Of a stretch of 64,000 bases of DNA, positions 5,725 through 45,833 are shown piece by piece (positions within the stretch are counted from its first letter, which is position 1; each line of letters begins with the position of its first letter). The stretch covers positions 372,001-436,000 of the forward strand of contig QWDQ01000001.1 of assembly GCA_003868215.1 (NCBI GenBank), written 5' to 3'. The notes beneath the pieces are model-generated. The model was not told the DNA's origin, ran no database searches, and was given only the letters and a program-made list of their open reading frames with translations. Made by a program: the position numbers and the translations under genes. Source of the DNA: Pseudophaeomoniella oleicola. Lineage: Eukaryota; Ascomycota; Eurotiomycetes; Phaeomoniellales; Phaeomoniellaceae.

Positions 5725-7567
5725 TATGGCTGTAGAATTCTCCTACGATCGTCTTTTGCTGTCTAGGTCGATTGGTGGTCGTCGGTGTTGCCAATGGGAT
5801 GAGCGGTCGAAATGCGGTCAACAGCCTTCTCGAGAATGCGCCGGAGCTCGTGGAATTCGGGAACGCAGGAATTCAATGAATTTGAGACTGGAAATAGAAT
5901 CGCAACAGTCTATTGTAGGGGTCTATGTCTGTTTCATTACGATCAGCGTCGTGGTGATGTTTCAGTCATTGGCTGAAGGGAGGAAGTGAGGGTTGGTTGA
6001 AGGGTGATTGCAAGGAGGATTTCGGGCAAATTGCGAAGGTGGAAAAACGTGCAAGTCCCGGTAGTGAGCGGGATTCCACAATGGTGCTGTTCCCAACACC
6101 TGTCTACCTATTAATTGCATAGTAGTACCTATCATACCAGCTTCTAGTTCTCTTCTCTTACTGTGAATCATTCTCCACCCCAGGTTTCACAATCCGCTGG
6201 ACATGTCATCTATAAAGAGTGGCGGCTGCTGCTTGTGCATCAGGATTTGAGTGACCTCTTCTTGGTTGGGGGTTCTACGCTATCTCTCAGTTCACGATGT
6301 TGGAGAGACTAGTTACTACGCTGCTGGTATCATTGCACCATCAAGATCGACACATCAGAATTTGAGGCAGACGGAACGTCGTAGATGGTGGCTGAAGTCA
6401 TGCTTTAGGAAATTGTCCGACTGGAACCAGCCATGCATCCATTCCAGGCTCGTTCACCGATCCACGGTTCGTTGTAAGAGATGGAGAAGCGAAGGAAGGG
6501 GTGCCCTTTACTGGATCGTCTCGCCTCGAACAGAAAAGAGCCGATGCACGCCTTGCATTTCAATGGAGACATGAACACGAGCATAGTGGGAAGGGCAAGT
6601 TGAAGTTCCTCTCGTATGGAATTGGGAAAACTACCCTTGCTATTCCCCCTCCCTCTTTCTTTCTCTTCCCCCAATCATCTGGTTTACAGCACACAGTACA
6701 CAGCATAACAATATACCTAAGGCTCGATGATTGACCACTATCATAGTGCCTGGTTGCTAAATGGGACACGATAAGTGCTTCCTGACTTCTAATGCCTCTG
6801 AGAGATCTTGATTCTTTGCCTTGGATCGTTGAAAATGAGAAAAATTCAATTCGATCCGAACGCGTAGACGCGGACAATTCGCGTTCCTCTCAATTTAAGT
6901 CGCGTCTCTTTTTTGGCCTCCCTTGGCTGTCTTTTTCCCCCTTTGGCAAGAGTCTTCTTTTCCCTTGGCTCTCCTTGCTTACTTATCATCCAATGTCTTG
7001 CACCAGCTCATCAACTTCTCTCTACCTCTGTCTTTCATGTTCCCATCTCGCCTCAGGAAGGAAGCCCACACGCCATTGGAATACATAGGCCATCCCTTAT
7101 GCGGCACACTCCTTGTCCCTTTGCAAGTGTGTTTAATGACCCTTGATTCATTCAACCATGATGAATCCTAAGAGACGAGACTAGACTTGTCTAGAACTGC
7201 TCGGATTAGCTACAAGACTCGGTCATTTCCTCTTGACCAGGCTAAGTGTTGGTATGATGGATCTATGTTCGTAGTAAATTTGTCATCGTCATACTTTAGA
7301 GTCATACTACGTAGATGCATTGAAAGGATACCAGAGAGTTCTTCCAGACAGACCATCCTTGAAGCAGAATACGGTGGGTCTCCGAGAGTAAACTGCGGAC
7401 CCGAGTCAAGAGATGGATGGGAGGTTCTCATAGGTTGCCAACAAGACCTCTTTGGCTGGCTTGCTGTCAACGATAAGGTAGGTAGTTATGCATAGCAAGG
7501 TAGTTTCCTGAGAGACTTCACTTCCATTGTAGATTATATATCTAAATACCCTCTTCCAAATTACAGT
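5725..7567. other. Intergenic / 5' region of the Myb-like gene
   Basis: About 1.8 kb with pyrimidine-rich stretches (6640-6672, 6905-7045) typical of fungal promoters and leaders. Open frames here are short, overlap each other on both strands and show no known domain. A TATA-like run at 7535-7541 belongs to the tRNA gene that follows. Confidence 0.5.
7535..7541 (+). promoter_or_regulatory. TATA-like box upstream of the tRNA gene
   Basis: TATATAT begins 33 bases before the tRNA 5' end, the position where fungal Pol III genes often carry a TFIIIB-binding TATA element. Role inferred from position. Confidence 0.5.
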
Positions 7568-7590
7568 GGCTGGATAGTTCAGTGGTAGAA

Positions 7591-7641
7591 GTGAGCCTCA
7601 CTCGCACCGTCTGGTTTTCATATATACTTACAATGATATAG
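7591..7641 (+). other. Spliceosomal-like GT-AG intron in the D-arm of the tRNA gene
   Basis: 51 nt, starting GTGAGC and ending ATATAG, with CTTAC at 7627-7631, ten bases before the 3' end. The bases on either side (A7590 against G7641, G7591 against T7642) differ, so the boundaries needed to restore the D-arm are unique and fall exactly on GT and AG. Size, donor and branch motif match mRNA introns in this window: INO80 intron 1 also begins GTGAGC, and the ALB1 intron also uses CTTAC and TAG. That the spliceosome removes it is inference. Confidence 0.7.
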
Positions 7642-7654
7642 TTCTTGCTTTGGG

Positions 7655-7667
7655 TTTCCAACACATC
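7655..7667 (+). other. Canonical tRNA intron (after position 37)
   Basis: 13 nt between G37 and U38. It contains CCA (7658-7660), able to pair with the UGG anticodon as is usual in eukaryotic pre-tRNAs. Expected to be removed by the SEN endonuclease. Confidence 0.8.
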
Positions 7668-7704
7668 TGTAAGAGGTCCTGGGTTCAATCCCCAGTTCAG
7701 CCCC

Positions 7705-7716
7705 TTTTTTTTTTTT
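7705..7716 (+). terminator. Pol III terminator T12
   Basis: A run of twelve T starts two bases after the tRNA 3' end. Confidence 0.85.
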
Positions 7717-21275: not shown

Positions 21276-23662
21276 TCATATATGCTGTTGTAGAAGTTGT
21301 GGTTGAATCATTTGACCTTGAAGAGAGTTCAAATCCGAGGCATCGTGGTGCGAGTGTTGCTGTTGTTGGAACATACCATGGTGGACATTGGTAGAGCCGC
21401 TAGAACCAGGTGCGTGCATGCTGCTGATATTTGACATATTGAGCATACCCGAACTCGACAGCGTGAAGCTTCCATCTTCTGGCGGTGAATCTTCGCCAAG
21501 TGAACCAAATTCGTTTTCCTCGGCTTCAAGATCCTCGTCGCTGAGACTCATATGGGGATGGGTACCATCCGGTTGGGTCTCATGGGTTCGGCGATGTCTA
21601 TCAATAGGCTGTCAGAATTGGAGTCCTGATCAAGGGAGATTATAGGTCGACGATAACTTACTGTGCGAGATTATCCGACCTAGAAAAGGCCTTGTTGCAG
21701 TAGGGACAGATGTATGGTCGTTCTTGAGTGTGGGTTCGAACGTGTCTAACCGCCGGAGAATTAGCTGGCGCTTAACCCAAATTTAAAATAGATTGCCCAA
21801 TCAATAGAAAACGAGAAGTGGCATGCAAGACATACCTTTTAAGATGTTCGAGACGTTTGAACAATCGACCACATGACGGAATGGGACACGAATGTGACTT
21901 GTGGGGATATGGACCAAGCTCCATCATGGTAGCGCTTCGAGCACGGCGGACTGGACCAGGGCGTTCCTGTCTCACCGCTGGACTGTTATGCAGAGAAAAC
22001 GATGAGTAATCATCATGGACCAGACTGGAAAGATCGTCCTGCTGTGGGCTAACGATAGGCATGGTGGCTGGTTGTGGGCTTTCTTCAAGGCTTGGCATGG
22101 GGGTGCCGTGACGAGAAAGGTCTTGGAGCAGGTCATTCTTTGGTACAACTGTCGAGGCATAGCTGTTTGTGAGGCCAGGTGGAGAGGTATTGTTCGACTC
22201 GTCGTTTTCCGCAAAGGGGAGGACAGAGCTTGACATCGAGCGGCGGAGGTCGCTTGGTCTGTGCGCTACATGTGGTTGTTTGGCCTGTGCTGCCGCATTG
22301 GCAGCCACAGCATTAAGGATTGATGGTGGGATTGAAGACCTCCTCCTGCGTTGCTTGTACGTTGGAGAGCCCTCTATTACAGAGTAGACGTTGGTAGATG
22401 GAAACGTCCGCGTCGCAGCGGAGAATTGTGGACCGACGAGGTTTGATGGTGGCAGGGTCGCCATTGGATTAAATGTACCCGCTGAAACATCAGGAAGAGC
22501 GCTGTAGAGTCCGGTGTCCTCATTGGCGATGTAGGCGGGCTCGGCACCCAATCCCATTCCTTGTTGAGGTGGGGTAATAGGTTCATAGGAGATAGCACGA
22601 TTGCTATAGTCATCATAATGCGATGAGACAAATGATGGAGCTGGTGAATACTCCATGTATGCTGGAACAGATGTATGTCTCTGATGCACCTTTGACAATG
22701 CGATTCCATTACGATCGAACTGCAGCTGACCGTAGTCTTGGTCACGCTTCATCATGTTTGATGCCATTGTATTCCCCATTGACATCTGGTTATACATCGG
22801 AGCAGACAAGGTGGTATCCTCCGGTACCATTGGCATCGAGTGGGGGATCATAGAAGGAGGAGGCATTGAGTCGACAGCTCTCATGACTGGCGAGGTCGAC
22901 TGCGAATATGAAGTATTTGCATGCGCTGAGAAAGAAGAAGAGTTTGCCTGTTGAGCCTTCGTGAGCTGTTCGAAGAGAGACTGTGAAGAATCGAACTCGA
23001 AAGACAATGCGGGCTCAGCCACAGCCACTGTAGTCGCTTCTTGATTCATCTTTTCTCTCTTCAGATCGCGCTCTAATGCGTCCAGGAACAGCCGGTCGTG
23101 TGGCACGCTGTACCAATAGAATACCTTCTGCTTCTTCTGCGTTCGAATGCAATTATTCTTGTACAGAAAGTCCAGGAAAGGGCTCTTGGGCTCTTCGAGG
23201 GACGCATCTGTCCCGGACTTCAAATTTCGGAGGTCGGAGAAGATCCCTTCTTCGAACTTCTTGGAATTCTTGACCGGTCTCCCAAAGGCCTGGAATCTGA
23301 ACGCAAGGCATCGTACGATATCCGTGCCTGAGATATGGAAGAGGTTGTTCCATAGCACACAGGATACATATTCGCCAGTTGGGAGAAGAAAGCGTCTAAT
23401 GTATTGGTCCGGGGTCCAGTCGACTGGCGCAGAGATCAAGAAATACTTCACTGTGAGGAGCTATTAGCGATGTTCAAGTCGAACGCGTTGCGCCAACGCG
23501 TGCTAACCGTCAAGGAAGGATGGGCAGCGTCGACTTACAGTTGTCGACTTGTTGAAGCGCGACTTGGGCATCTTGAGGTAGGCTTTGTTGAGCTTCAGTT
23601 GATAGCATGAAAGTTTCGGGCTTTTGAGGCGGTGCCATTGCCGCACCAGCCTGAGAATACAT
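21276..23662 (-). CDS. STE12: Ste12 transcription factor with homeodomain-like STE domain and two C2H2 fingers
   Basis: Minus-strand exons 23662-23539, 23450-21836, 21745-21662 and 21597-21276; 714 aa. Exon 1 encodes [20 protein letters not shown], the common start of filamentous-fungal Ste12. The STE domain (about 42-160) is very well conserved ([56 protein letters not shown]). A long Ser/Gln/Met-rich region follows, then two C2H2 fingers: [19 protein letters not shown] (about 563-585) and [21 protein letters not shown] (about 593-613). Ste12 is the downstream target of the Fus3/Kss1-type MAP kinase, controlling mating, fruiting and invasive growth; the C2H2 fingers are typical of filamentous fungi and absent in yeast Ste12. 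Exon 3 is 84 nt with phase-2 introns on both sides, so it can be skipped in frame. Confidence 0.97.
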
Positions 23663-43930: not shown

Positions 43931-45833
43931 ATGGAAGCCTTTCTCGGTTCTTCCAAGGCGGTATGCCCGTTCCTCAAAAAGACGTCGCCGGCCACCCTCC
44001 GATCTCTCTCCACTGCCACACAGCAGTCTCCCGGTGGAGGCACCATTACCAATTTGCAATTCATTGCACGTCGCTGCCCTGTCATGAGCAAGGCTTTGGC
44101 CGTTCAGAGCGCTCGAATCAAGACCGCCAATTGCTCCACCACTTCTACCGCCAAGGCTGGTGCGTTCAAATCAATTGTAGCAAGAAAATTGCATACCTCT
44201 GCTGAAAGGAAGGCCAATGTGGATACCTCTACGTTGAAACCGAACAGACACGGTAAGCGATGACAGGCGTGAGATCCCAGCTCATCTTCTGACTCCAATG
44301 ATAGGTTTTCCGTCCCCACGGGTTGCTACTCCGGTCGCCACGAAAGATGCTGCCTTTTCAGGTCCGAAGCCAGCTCCTCCTCCTGTGCCGCGATTCGACT
44401 ACGAGGGTTTCTACGATGCTGAGCTTGACAAAAAGCACAAGGATAAATCCTACCGGTACTTCAACAACATCAATCGGCTGGCTCGAGAGTTTCCCCGGGC
44501 CCACATGACAACGCCGGAAGAGAAGGTGACCGTATGGTGCTCTAACGATTATCTGGGCATGGGAAGGAACAAGCAAGTCTTGGAAACGATGCATCAGACC
44601 CTGGATAAATACGGTGCCGGTGCCGGAGGAACGCGCAATATCTCTGGTCACAATCAGCATGCGGTCGCATTGGAAAAGACTTTGGCCGATTTACATCACA
44701 AAGAAGGCGCACTCGTCTTCAGCTCTTGTTACGTTGCGAACGATGCCACCTTGGCTACCCTGGGCAGCAAACTACCGAATTGCGTTATACTGTCAGACAG
44801 TTTGAACCACGCTTCTATGATTCAAGGCATCAGGCACTCTGGGGCAAAGAAGATGGTCTACAAACACAACGACTTGGAGGATTTGGAGAATAAATTGGCT
44901 TCCTTGGACCCAGCGGTCCCCAAAATCATCGCTTTCGAATCCGTATACAGCATGTGCGGGTCCGTAGCTCCGATTGAGGCTATTTGCGACTTGGCAGATA
45001 AGTACGGTGCCGTCACCTTTTTGGATGAAGTTCATGCCGTTGGTATGTATGGTCCTCACGGTGCAGGTGTTGCGGAGCATCTTGACTACGAGGTATATGC
45101 TTCGGAGGGCAAGCTCCCGACAAAAGGCACTATCATGGACCGTATAGACATAATCACGGGTACTCTTGGTAAGGCTTGGGGGTGTGTTGGCGGGTACATC
45201 GCTGGATCCGCCAAGTTTGTGGACATGATTCGTTCCCTCGCTCCCGGTTTCATCTTCACGACTTCGCTACCCCCTGCCACCATGGCTGGAGCGCGTGCAG
45301 CGATTGAGTACCAAGCTTCATTTCAACATGACCGCACCCTGCAGCAGCTACATACCCGTGCTGTCAAAGATGCACTGGAGGCCAAAGACATACCGGTCAT
45401 TCCAAACCCTAGCCACATTGTGCCGGTGCTCGTTGGAGATGCTGAGCTTGCAAAGAAAGCATCTGATATGCTACTCATCGACCATGATATATATGTCCAG
45501 GCAATCAATTATCCCACGGTACCACGCGGTGAGGAACGGTTGAGGATTACGCCTACCCCAGGTCACACACAGGAATTGAGAGATGAATTGGTCAAGGCTT
45601 TGGAAGCCGTTTGGACCAAGCTTGATCTCAAGCGCATCAGTGATTGGAAAGCAATGGGCGGTTTTGTCGGAGTTGGGGTTGAAAACGCCCCCCCAGTCGA
45701 AACGCTCTGGACTGATGAGCAACTGGGCCTGGACAATGCACAATCTGAGAGGGCCTTGGAGGAAATCCTGGAAACGCAGATGCAGCCCGAAGAACCAGTG
45801 GTTGACGTCGCTGCTGCTGCAACCGCGGCGTAA
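43931..45833 (+). CDS. HEM1: 5-aminolevulinate synthase, mitochondrial (haem biosynthesis)
   Basis: Exons 43931-44252 and 44305-45833 (52-nt intron); 616 aa. It condenses succinyl-CoA and glycine to 5-aminolevulinate, the first step of haem synthesis, with PLP in the mitochondrial matrix. Seen: a presequence region with two Cys-Pro haem-regulatory-type motifs (AVCPFLKK near the start and RRCPVMSK about residue 48), the catalytic core from [62 protein letters not shown], the PLP lysine in [12 protein letters not shown] (about residue 394), and [19 protein letters not shown]. The C-terminal ~60 residues are an Ala/Glu-rich tail as in fungal HemA proteins. CP motifs in this enzyme family let haem block import or trigger turnover; that this applies here is inference. 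ATG 43931 gives the expected presequence. Confidence 0.98.

Follow-up and report, generated by a model that had tools for sequence, protein, structure and literature searches.

We analysed a 64,000-nucleotide (nt) stretch of contig QWDQ01000001.1 of the ascomycete Pseudophaeomoniella oleicola (the window), which contains a nuclear gene for a transfer RNA (tRNA), tRNA-Pro(UGG), at 7568-7703 of the forward strand. Its D-arm is interrupted by a 51-nt insert with GT and AG ends, and the gene also carries a 13-nt intron at the usual place between tRNA positions 37 and 38. Judged from its sequence, the insert is very probably a genuine U2-type spliceosomal intron in a functional tRNA gene, one of nine such genes found in this genome. 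The accepted view is that a dedicated endonuclease and a ligase remove the introns of eukaryotic nuclear tRNAs, and we know of no case in which the spliceosome acts on tRNA.

Results

Anatomy of the tRNA-Pro(UGG) gene

A TATA-like element (TATATA, 7535-7540, forward strand, as are all parts of the gene) is read from the sequence at -33. Exon 1 (7568-7590, tRNA positions 1-24) comprises the acceptor 5' strand, the A box and most of the D-arm; it is delimited by sequence and fold, and its counterpart in a paralogue on contig C35 is identical. The putative spliceosomal intron follows between positions 24 and 25 (7591-7641), placed by fold, paralogue and the excision tests described below. It reads GTGAGC...CTTACAATGATATAG, with the donor GTGAGC at 7591-7596, a branch-like CTTAC at 7627-7631 (candidate branch A at 7630) and the acceptor TAG at 7639-7641. 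Exon 2 (7642-7654, positions 25-37, anticodon TGG) and the canonical 13-nt 37/38 intron of the tRNA splicing endonuclease type (7655-7667) were delimited by both ARAGORN and our own cloverleaf parser. Exon 3 (7668-7703, positions 38-73) holds the B box GGTTCAATCCC, as seen in the sequence and by ARAGORN, and a run of twelve T (T12, 7705-7716) provides the terminator for RNA polymerase III (Pol III).

With the 51 nt excised, ARAGORN reports a tRNA-Pro(TGG) with a 13-nt intron (score 108.7), and with both introns excised a 72-nt tRNA-Pro(TGG) (score 119.9). The twice-excised gene scores 26 by our own cloverleaf grammar, and the A box, the B box and the T12 terminator are all there. An earlier, sequence-only reading of this DNA had proposed the same two-intron arrangement with intact Pol III signals; its sequence and coordinates are correct, and the signals are as it described. 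Rfam at gathering cut-offs and a standard tRNA tool return no tRNA in the window.

The same reading held that the fold makes the boundaries of the insert unambiguous, which proved too strong: four of the 147 D-arm excisions tie at the best score, although just one of the 147, within those four, is GT-AG. The junction is therefore fixed by the paralogue and by the same GT-AG rule in eight other interrupted genes, and not by the fold alone.

A second copy with the same two introns

The paralogue (G000:C35:74599-74746) is the sole other match of the window gene in the genome (26.1 Mb, 112 contigs). The 72 exon positions show no change, both introns sit at the same places and the flanks are unalignable. 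On the other hand, the two D-arm introns differ at 11 of 51 sites, nine of which fall within the middle 25 nt (exon versus D-arm intron, Fisher p 3e-5; middle versus ends of the intron, p 0.019). Both retain the first six bases, GTGAGC, and, save one base, the last 19 nt, which include CTTAC and TAG. The 37/38 introns have diverged in sequence and in length (13 versus 15 nt). The unchanged exons point to purifying selection, on the basis of this one pair, and gene conversion could produce them as well.

The sequence-only reading had named a match of the insert to a dispersed repeat as an argument against an intron. A 241-nt query from the window matched only itself and the paralogue at an E value of 0.001. 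An introner-like element likewise finds no support, the window gene with its insert matching one other locus instead of many near-identical copies, in a search that covered the insert of this gene. The same reading had also raised a duplication origin from a repeated ATAGTTC. Both copies exist, but they lie 64 nt apart against an insert of 51 nt, and so do not flank it in the manner of a target duplication.

Nine interrupted tRNA genes in the genome

We surveyed the genome for tRNA genes with six patterns that combine a B box and a T run, with one B-box pattern lacking the T run and with the Rfam tRNA model, and 98 stretches were then fetched, two of which repeat others in a wider frame. Matches to the combined patterns were in excess on one or both strands, and all their non-mitochondrial places were inspected. 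The bare B-box pattern showed no excess (204 + 201 matches in the genome versus 193 + 217 in the reversed control); the first 100 of its 405 places were considered, and 28 places picked and fetched from these contained no tRNA gene. For the Rfam model, 63 of 781 candidates were scored. Excluded from the count were the mitochondrial loci (12 locus identifiers) of contig C110, where a mitochondrial-type tRNA-Pro(UGG) sits in a tRNA cluster.

Together with the loci from the window query and the Rfam model, the fetched stretches yielded 52 recognised nuclear tRNA genes, of which 43 have an intact D-arm and nine carry a D-arm insert. The intact genes comprise 40 that our parser reads and three for tRNA-Gly(GCC) (L008-L010), on which the parser fails and which ARAGORN reports as intact. 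By our parser, 33 of the 43 carry a 37/38 intron of 7-58 nt (ARAGORN differs on some, e.g. L029), so that the set is rich in introns. The genes for tRNA-Pro(AGG) and tRNA-Pro(CGG) have 37/38 introns only (L050, L054).

The nine inserts are 51-88 nt long and all lie between positions 15 and 27, the Sprinzl positions of the junctions being our reading of the computed folds. Besides the two copies of Pro(UGG), which share the intron start GTGAGC and the junction 24/25, they interrupt Leu(AAG) on contig C91 (GTTCGT, 15/16), Phe(GAA) on C36 (GTAAGT, 16/17), Val(AAC) on C21 (GTCAGT, 17/18), Lys(UUU) on C85 (GTATGT, 19/20), Gln(CUG) on C61 (GTACGT, 23/24), Tyr(GUA) on C54 (GTAGGT, 26/27) and Trp(CCA) on C22 (GTAAGT, 26/27). 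Paralogues that lack a D-arm insert exist for Leu(AAG) and Val(AAC) (L058 and L014, respectively). The excised Leu(AAG) D-arm is identical to that of its paralogue (TGGCCGAGTTGGTTATGGCG), and thus the Leu junction is directly supported; the D-arm of the Val(AAC) paralogue differs from that of the excised gene and lends no support to the Val junction. T runs were found at eight of the nine interrupted genes.

Splice signals and excision tests

Scoring of excisions with ARAGORN proved too permissive for placing the junctions, since most excisions per gene gave a full-length call; its top-scoring excision was of a different isotype for both Pro genes and for Val, and was the GT-AG one for Gln. 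We therefore adopted a stricter cloverleaf grammar of our own. We removed, one at a time, all segments of 40-120 nt whose start lies in the D-arm region, and scored the remaining cloverleaf against a threshold of 24, which is attained by 38 of the 40 parser-readable intact genes. A threshold of 20 was tried and rejected. At this value each of nine controls with wrong dinucleotides let between 2 and 9 loci pass; the loci L056 and L103 were labelled intact (scores 21 and 20) though their GT-AG excisions reach 24 and 26, and one further locus (L059/L099) was labelled split with a score of 20.

At scores of at least 24, between 16 and 52 excisions pass per interrupted gene, covering 16-40 of the 256 end-dinucleotide pairs. 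Each of the nine genes has a single GT-AG excision among those that pass, and the runner-up pair occurs in five of nine. For random pairs, the chance product of finding GT-AG in all genes is 1.6e-9, rising to 1.2e-8 when the second Pro copy is left out; this figure is a guide and not a blind estimate, as eight of the nine genes were first picked by eye for an intron-like insert. Among 51 control loci that hold no tRNA, two (L042 and L059) have any excision scoring at least 24, and 12 further loci of this kind yield no passing excision; none of the 63 controls gives GT-AG. When the D-arm alone was scored (147 excisions per gene), the GT-AG excision was among the best in eight of the nine genes.

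Features that lie outside the excision test point the same way. G stands at +5 in all nine inserts, T at +6 in seven, and all nine end in a YAG acceptor. The branch-like motif is CTAAC in five genes, CTAAT in one, TTAAC in one and CTTAC in the two Pro copies, with its A 11-20 nt from the intron end. The longest T run in any of the introns is at most 4. We also assessed the bulge-helix-bulge (BHB) motif, and the introns form 1-3 of 4 pairs of the central helix, 0-2 of 3 of the outer and 0-1 of 3 of the inner one. None of the nine thus reaches even the full central helix of the motif, a test that covers its strict form only and has no positive control.

Introns of messenger RNA and of U6 in the same genome

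Intron prediction from coding statistics was discarded, GT-AG giving 238 candidates against 222-294 for four control dinucleotide pairs. For this reason the comparison uses four messenger RNA (mRNA) introns of the window that are anchored by protein homologues. One is the 52-nt intron of the 5-aminolevulinate synthase (ALAS) gene (44253-44304, forward strand, GTAAGC...CTGACTCCAATGATAG), placed by tblastn of homologues and the reading frame. The other three are in STE12/steA on the reverse strand: 64 nt at 21598-21661 (GTAAGT...CTGAC...TAG), 90 nt at 21746-21835 (GTATGT...CTAAT...TAG) and 88 nt at 23451-23538 (GTAAGT...CTAAT...CAG). They share the grammar of the tRNA inserts, and their lengths of 52-90 nt compare with 51-88 nt, in line with the sequence-only reading, which had likened the insert to mRNA introns of the window in length. 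The ALAS intron and the tRNA-Pro intron have similar ends (CCAATGATAG and ACAATGATATAG, respectively).

The gene for the U6 small nuclear RNA (snRNA) of this genome (L034, C32:203080-203235) carries a 56-nt intron, GTTTGG...CTAAT...TAG, between GATTAG and CATGGCCCC. A GT-AG intron is thus already found in a classical Pol III gene of this species. Together with the paralogue and the seven further interrupted tRNA genes, it strengthens the interpretation of the Pro insert as a GT-AG intron.

Probable requirement for the interrupted genes

We queried the genome with the spliced exons of Phe, Tyr, Trp, Gln(CUG) and Lys(UUU) and found interrupted loci only (nine candidate places scored; the search sees no more than near-identical copies). 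The spliced 72-nt Pro(UGG) query, with the same reach, gave two nuclear loci in the 26.1 Mb, both with the D-arm insert. Several uninterrupted Pro(UGG) genes, which the sequence-only reading had named, together with missing processed tRNA, as a sign of a non-functional copy, were therefore not found elsewhere in the genome, and Pro(UGG) is the sixth anticodon for which no uninterrupted gene was found. The nine open reading frames of the window (6004 codons) contain 209 Phe, 196 Tyr and 76 Trp codons as well as 90 CCA, 107 AAA and 95 CAG. The tRNAs for these six anticodons must thus come from spliced transcripts, unless uninterrupted genes were missed or are unassembled. The interrupted state is probably obligatory for the supply of Phe, Tyr and Trp tRNAs.

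Other loci of the window and of the survey

The ALAS and STE12 proteins of the window place the fungus in the Eurotiomycetes, within or close to the Chaetothyriomycetidae, and the matches of an inositol phosphatase are in agreement. The window STE12 is 87% identical over 96% of the query to that of Phaeomoniella chlamydospora (Phaeomoniellales), the best match with a species name among the matches listed. The corresponding best named matches, each among 120 listed, are Pyrenula ochraceoflavens for ALAS (82%) and Exophiala bonariae for the inositol phosphatase (51%), P. chlamydospora being absent from both sets. In some of the lists, matches without a species name are closer (88%, 69% and 86%).

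Several Pol III-like loci were met in the survey. Three of them, L100 (C63:77450-77810), L101 (C98:52560-52960) and L104 (C37:29360-29720), form a family with a TATA element, the B-box-like GTTCGAGTCA and T runs; the family has no Rfam match at an E value of 0.5 and may represent an unknown Pol III RNA. L042/L098 (C21, ~299875-300050, reverse strand) is tRNA-like in that its acceptor, D and T arms are good, but it has no sensible anticodon arm, and ARAGORN calls it selenocysteine with an 88-nt intron. L059/L099 (C102:255280-255640) has a B box and a T run, no credible cloverleaf and an internal intron-like GTGGGAG..CACTAACTGATACAG. Finally, L084 (C2:263220-263580) has a TATA element, the B-box-like GTTCGAATCGC and T5, with no tRNA fold and no Rfam match at the same E value.

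Discussion

Four other explanations of the Pro insert have to be weighed against a spliceosomal intron. It might be a non-canonical BHB intron of the kind found in archaea, in Cyanidioschyzon and perhaps in nucleomorphs, which the tRNA splicing endonuclease would cut out before tRNA ligase joins the exons. D-arm introns are indeed described from such systems, sometimes beside a 37/38 intron of the same gene (PMC4090602, PMC3978253). These introns, however, have no reason to start with GT, to hold G at +5 and a CTAAC-like motif and to end in YAG. In addition, PMC4090602 reports that Sen54 contacts the D-arm and that the yeast endonuclease cuts at set distances from the tRNA body. Because the strict BHB test fails in all nine introns and the D-arm that Sen54 contacts, interrupted here, is complete only after the GT-AG intron is gone, we consider the endonuclease route very unlikely. 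Even less likely is a dead copy in which an insertion or a duplication has struck a tRNA gene. The 7-nt repeat nearby speaks for it, and it may fit Val(AAC), which lacks a close T run and has the uninterrupted paralogue L014; yet the insert is present in both Pro(UGG) loci found, whose exons are identical at 72 of 72 positions, the sole tRNA-Phe, -Tyr and -Trp genes found hold like inserts, the Pol III signals are intact, and the codon CCA is in use in the window.

The spliceosome might instead act only on transcripts read by RNA polymerase II (Pol II), for example longer ones, giving RNAs with another role, and Pol II transcripts are indeed the usual substrate of the spliceosome (PMC8527467). 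Against this stand the Pol III boxes, the T runs at all interrupted genes but one and the failure to find any other source of Phe, Tyr and Trp tRNAs; moreover, PMC5832005 and PMC8527467 describe introns of spliceosome type in the genes for U6 and U3 and the removal of spliceosomal introns from ribosomal RNA made by RNA polymerase I (Pol I). We therefore regard this explanation as remote. We give least credence to a reading of the gene as tRNA-Ser(GCU), or as another isotype, with one longer intron. For the raw window gene ARAGORN does return tRNA-Ser(GCT) (score 103.3), placing a 46-nt intron at 33, but with thresholds lowered to 85% it names the exon-identical paralogue tRNA-Ala(TGC), so the Ser name hangs on intron bases that are not conserved and is an artefact. 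A normal Ser(GCT) gene is also present (L031), and excision yields a higher score with a normal 37/38 intron.

Some observations weigh against a spliceosomal intron in functional tRNA genes. The evidence consists of DNA sequence from one genome, and the support from conservation of one paralogue pair inside it. The interrupted copy of Val(AAC) has no close T run and for this reason could be a pseudogene. The introns of Leu, Phe, Val and Lys fall inside the A box or border on it, a box which we take to be tRNA positions 8-19, and would place a load on the internal promoter. The branch-like motif of Pro(UGG), CTTAC, is off consensus and weaker. In the D-arm-only test, 13 to 29 of the 147 excisions tie with the GT-AG one in five genes, and that of Lys(UUU) ranks second, tied with 28 others, and leaves an A-C mismatch, which also occurs in the intact tRNA-Asn L061. 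Furthermore, neither tRNA-Asp(GUC) nor tRNA-Arg(ACG) was found by the B-box patterns or the Rfam model; the survey is thus incomplete, and uninterrupted copies of the six may lie in missed or unassembled DNA. The Asp(GUC) and Arg(ACG) genes may be interrupted too, or have odd B boxes.

A spliceosomal origin of the tRNA inserts has relatives among other structured RNAs. Spliceosomal introns are known in U6 snRNA genes of Schizosaccharomyces pombe and other fungi (cited in PMC5832005). There, too, an mRNA-type intron sits in a short structured Pol III RNA, as in the U6 gene of this genome; U6, however, is a component of the spliceosome, whereas here nine genes are concerned of an RNA class with its own pathway of intron removal. 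The same 2017 paper presents U3 and U6 as the sole small structured RNAs in which introns are known to be frequent, and its available part does not name tRNAs. The fungal U3 small nucleolar RNA introns it describes are likewise of mRNA type and near the 5' part of a structured non-coding RNA, with U3 instead of tRNA as the host. Ectopic spliceosomal introns in the ribosomal DNA of lichen fungi (PMC8527467) share the spliceosomal type and an ascomycete transcript not made by Pol II, but interrupt a Pol I ribosomal RNA and not a Pol III tRNA.

Extra D-arm introns as such are not new. A 2014 review (PMC4090602) lists eukaryotic ones from nucleomorphs and a red alga, endonuclease-type or unexplained, and treats other D- or T-arm inserts as supposed pseudogenes. 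Pyrobaculum islandicum tRNA-Pro(UGG) has two non-canonical introns and a canonical one according to that review and PMC3978253. The introns of archaea, Cyanidioschyzon merolae and nucleomorphs resemble the present ones in their place, and sometimes in having a 37/38 intron in the same gene; they differ in being removed by the BHB endonuclease route or, when short, in an unexplained way, whereas the inserts here have GT-AG ends, a branch-like motif and no strict BHB. The canonical 37/38 intron, present in the same gene, differs from the D-arm intron in position, length and boundary rules.

Our literature search, which covered mainly titles and the openings of abstracts and few subscription papers, brought up no account of nuclear tRNA genes with spliceosomal introns. 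The spliceosome and the intron type are known; what has no counterpart in this search is the class of host RNA. A Phe-type pattern had no match in viral contigs and a Pro-type pattern none in genome contigs; neither collection includes fungi, so these searches are uninformative on fungi. The non-canonical intron search of tRNAscan-SE 2.0 is described for its archaeal mode (PMC8450103). Given this description and the misnaming by ARAGORN, such genes may be missed or misnamed in other fungal genomes.

For a spliceosomal intron in tRNA-Pro(UGG), we infer the following course from the arrangement of the gene. Pol III would transcribe it from the A and B boxes through to T12, and the nuclear spliceosome would take out the GT-AG intron, as it does with introns of U6, which Pol III makes as well. 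The D-arm would fold once this intron is gone, and the tRNA splicing endonuclease and ligase would then remove the 37/38 intron, end processing finishing a mature tRNA. As the D-arm is complete only without the GT-AG intron, the predicted order is spliceosome first and endonuclease second.

Translation in this lineage likely depends on the spliceosome through the supply of tRNAs, in that the sole genes found for Phe, Tyr, Trp, Lys(UUU), Gln(CUG) and Pro(UGG) carry introns of the spliceosomal kind, some of these genes having two introns that would need two different machines in turn. If this is true, these inserts would constitute a third kind of tRNA intron, and the spliceosome would be able to help turn a transcript made by Pol III into a mature tRNA. 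The finding would also bear on intron gain, one conceivable route being reverse splicing into RNAs made by Pol III. Splicing capacity would then be directly tied to the decoding of whole amino acids, and the rate of splicing may act as a control of codon decoding.
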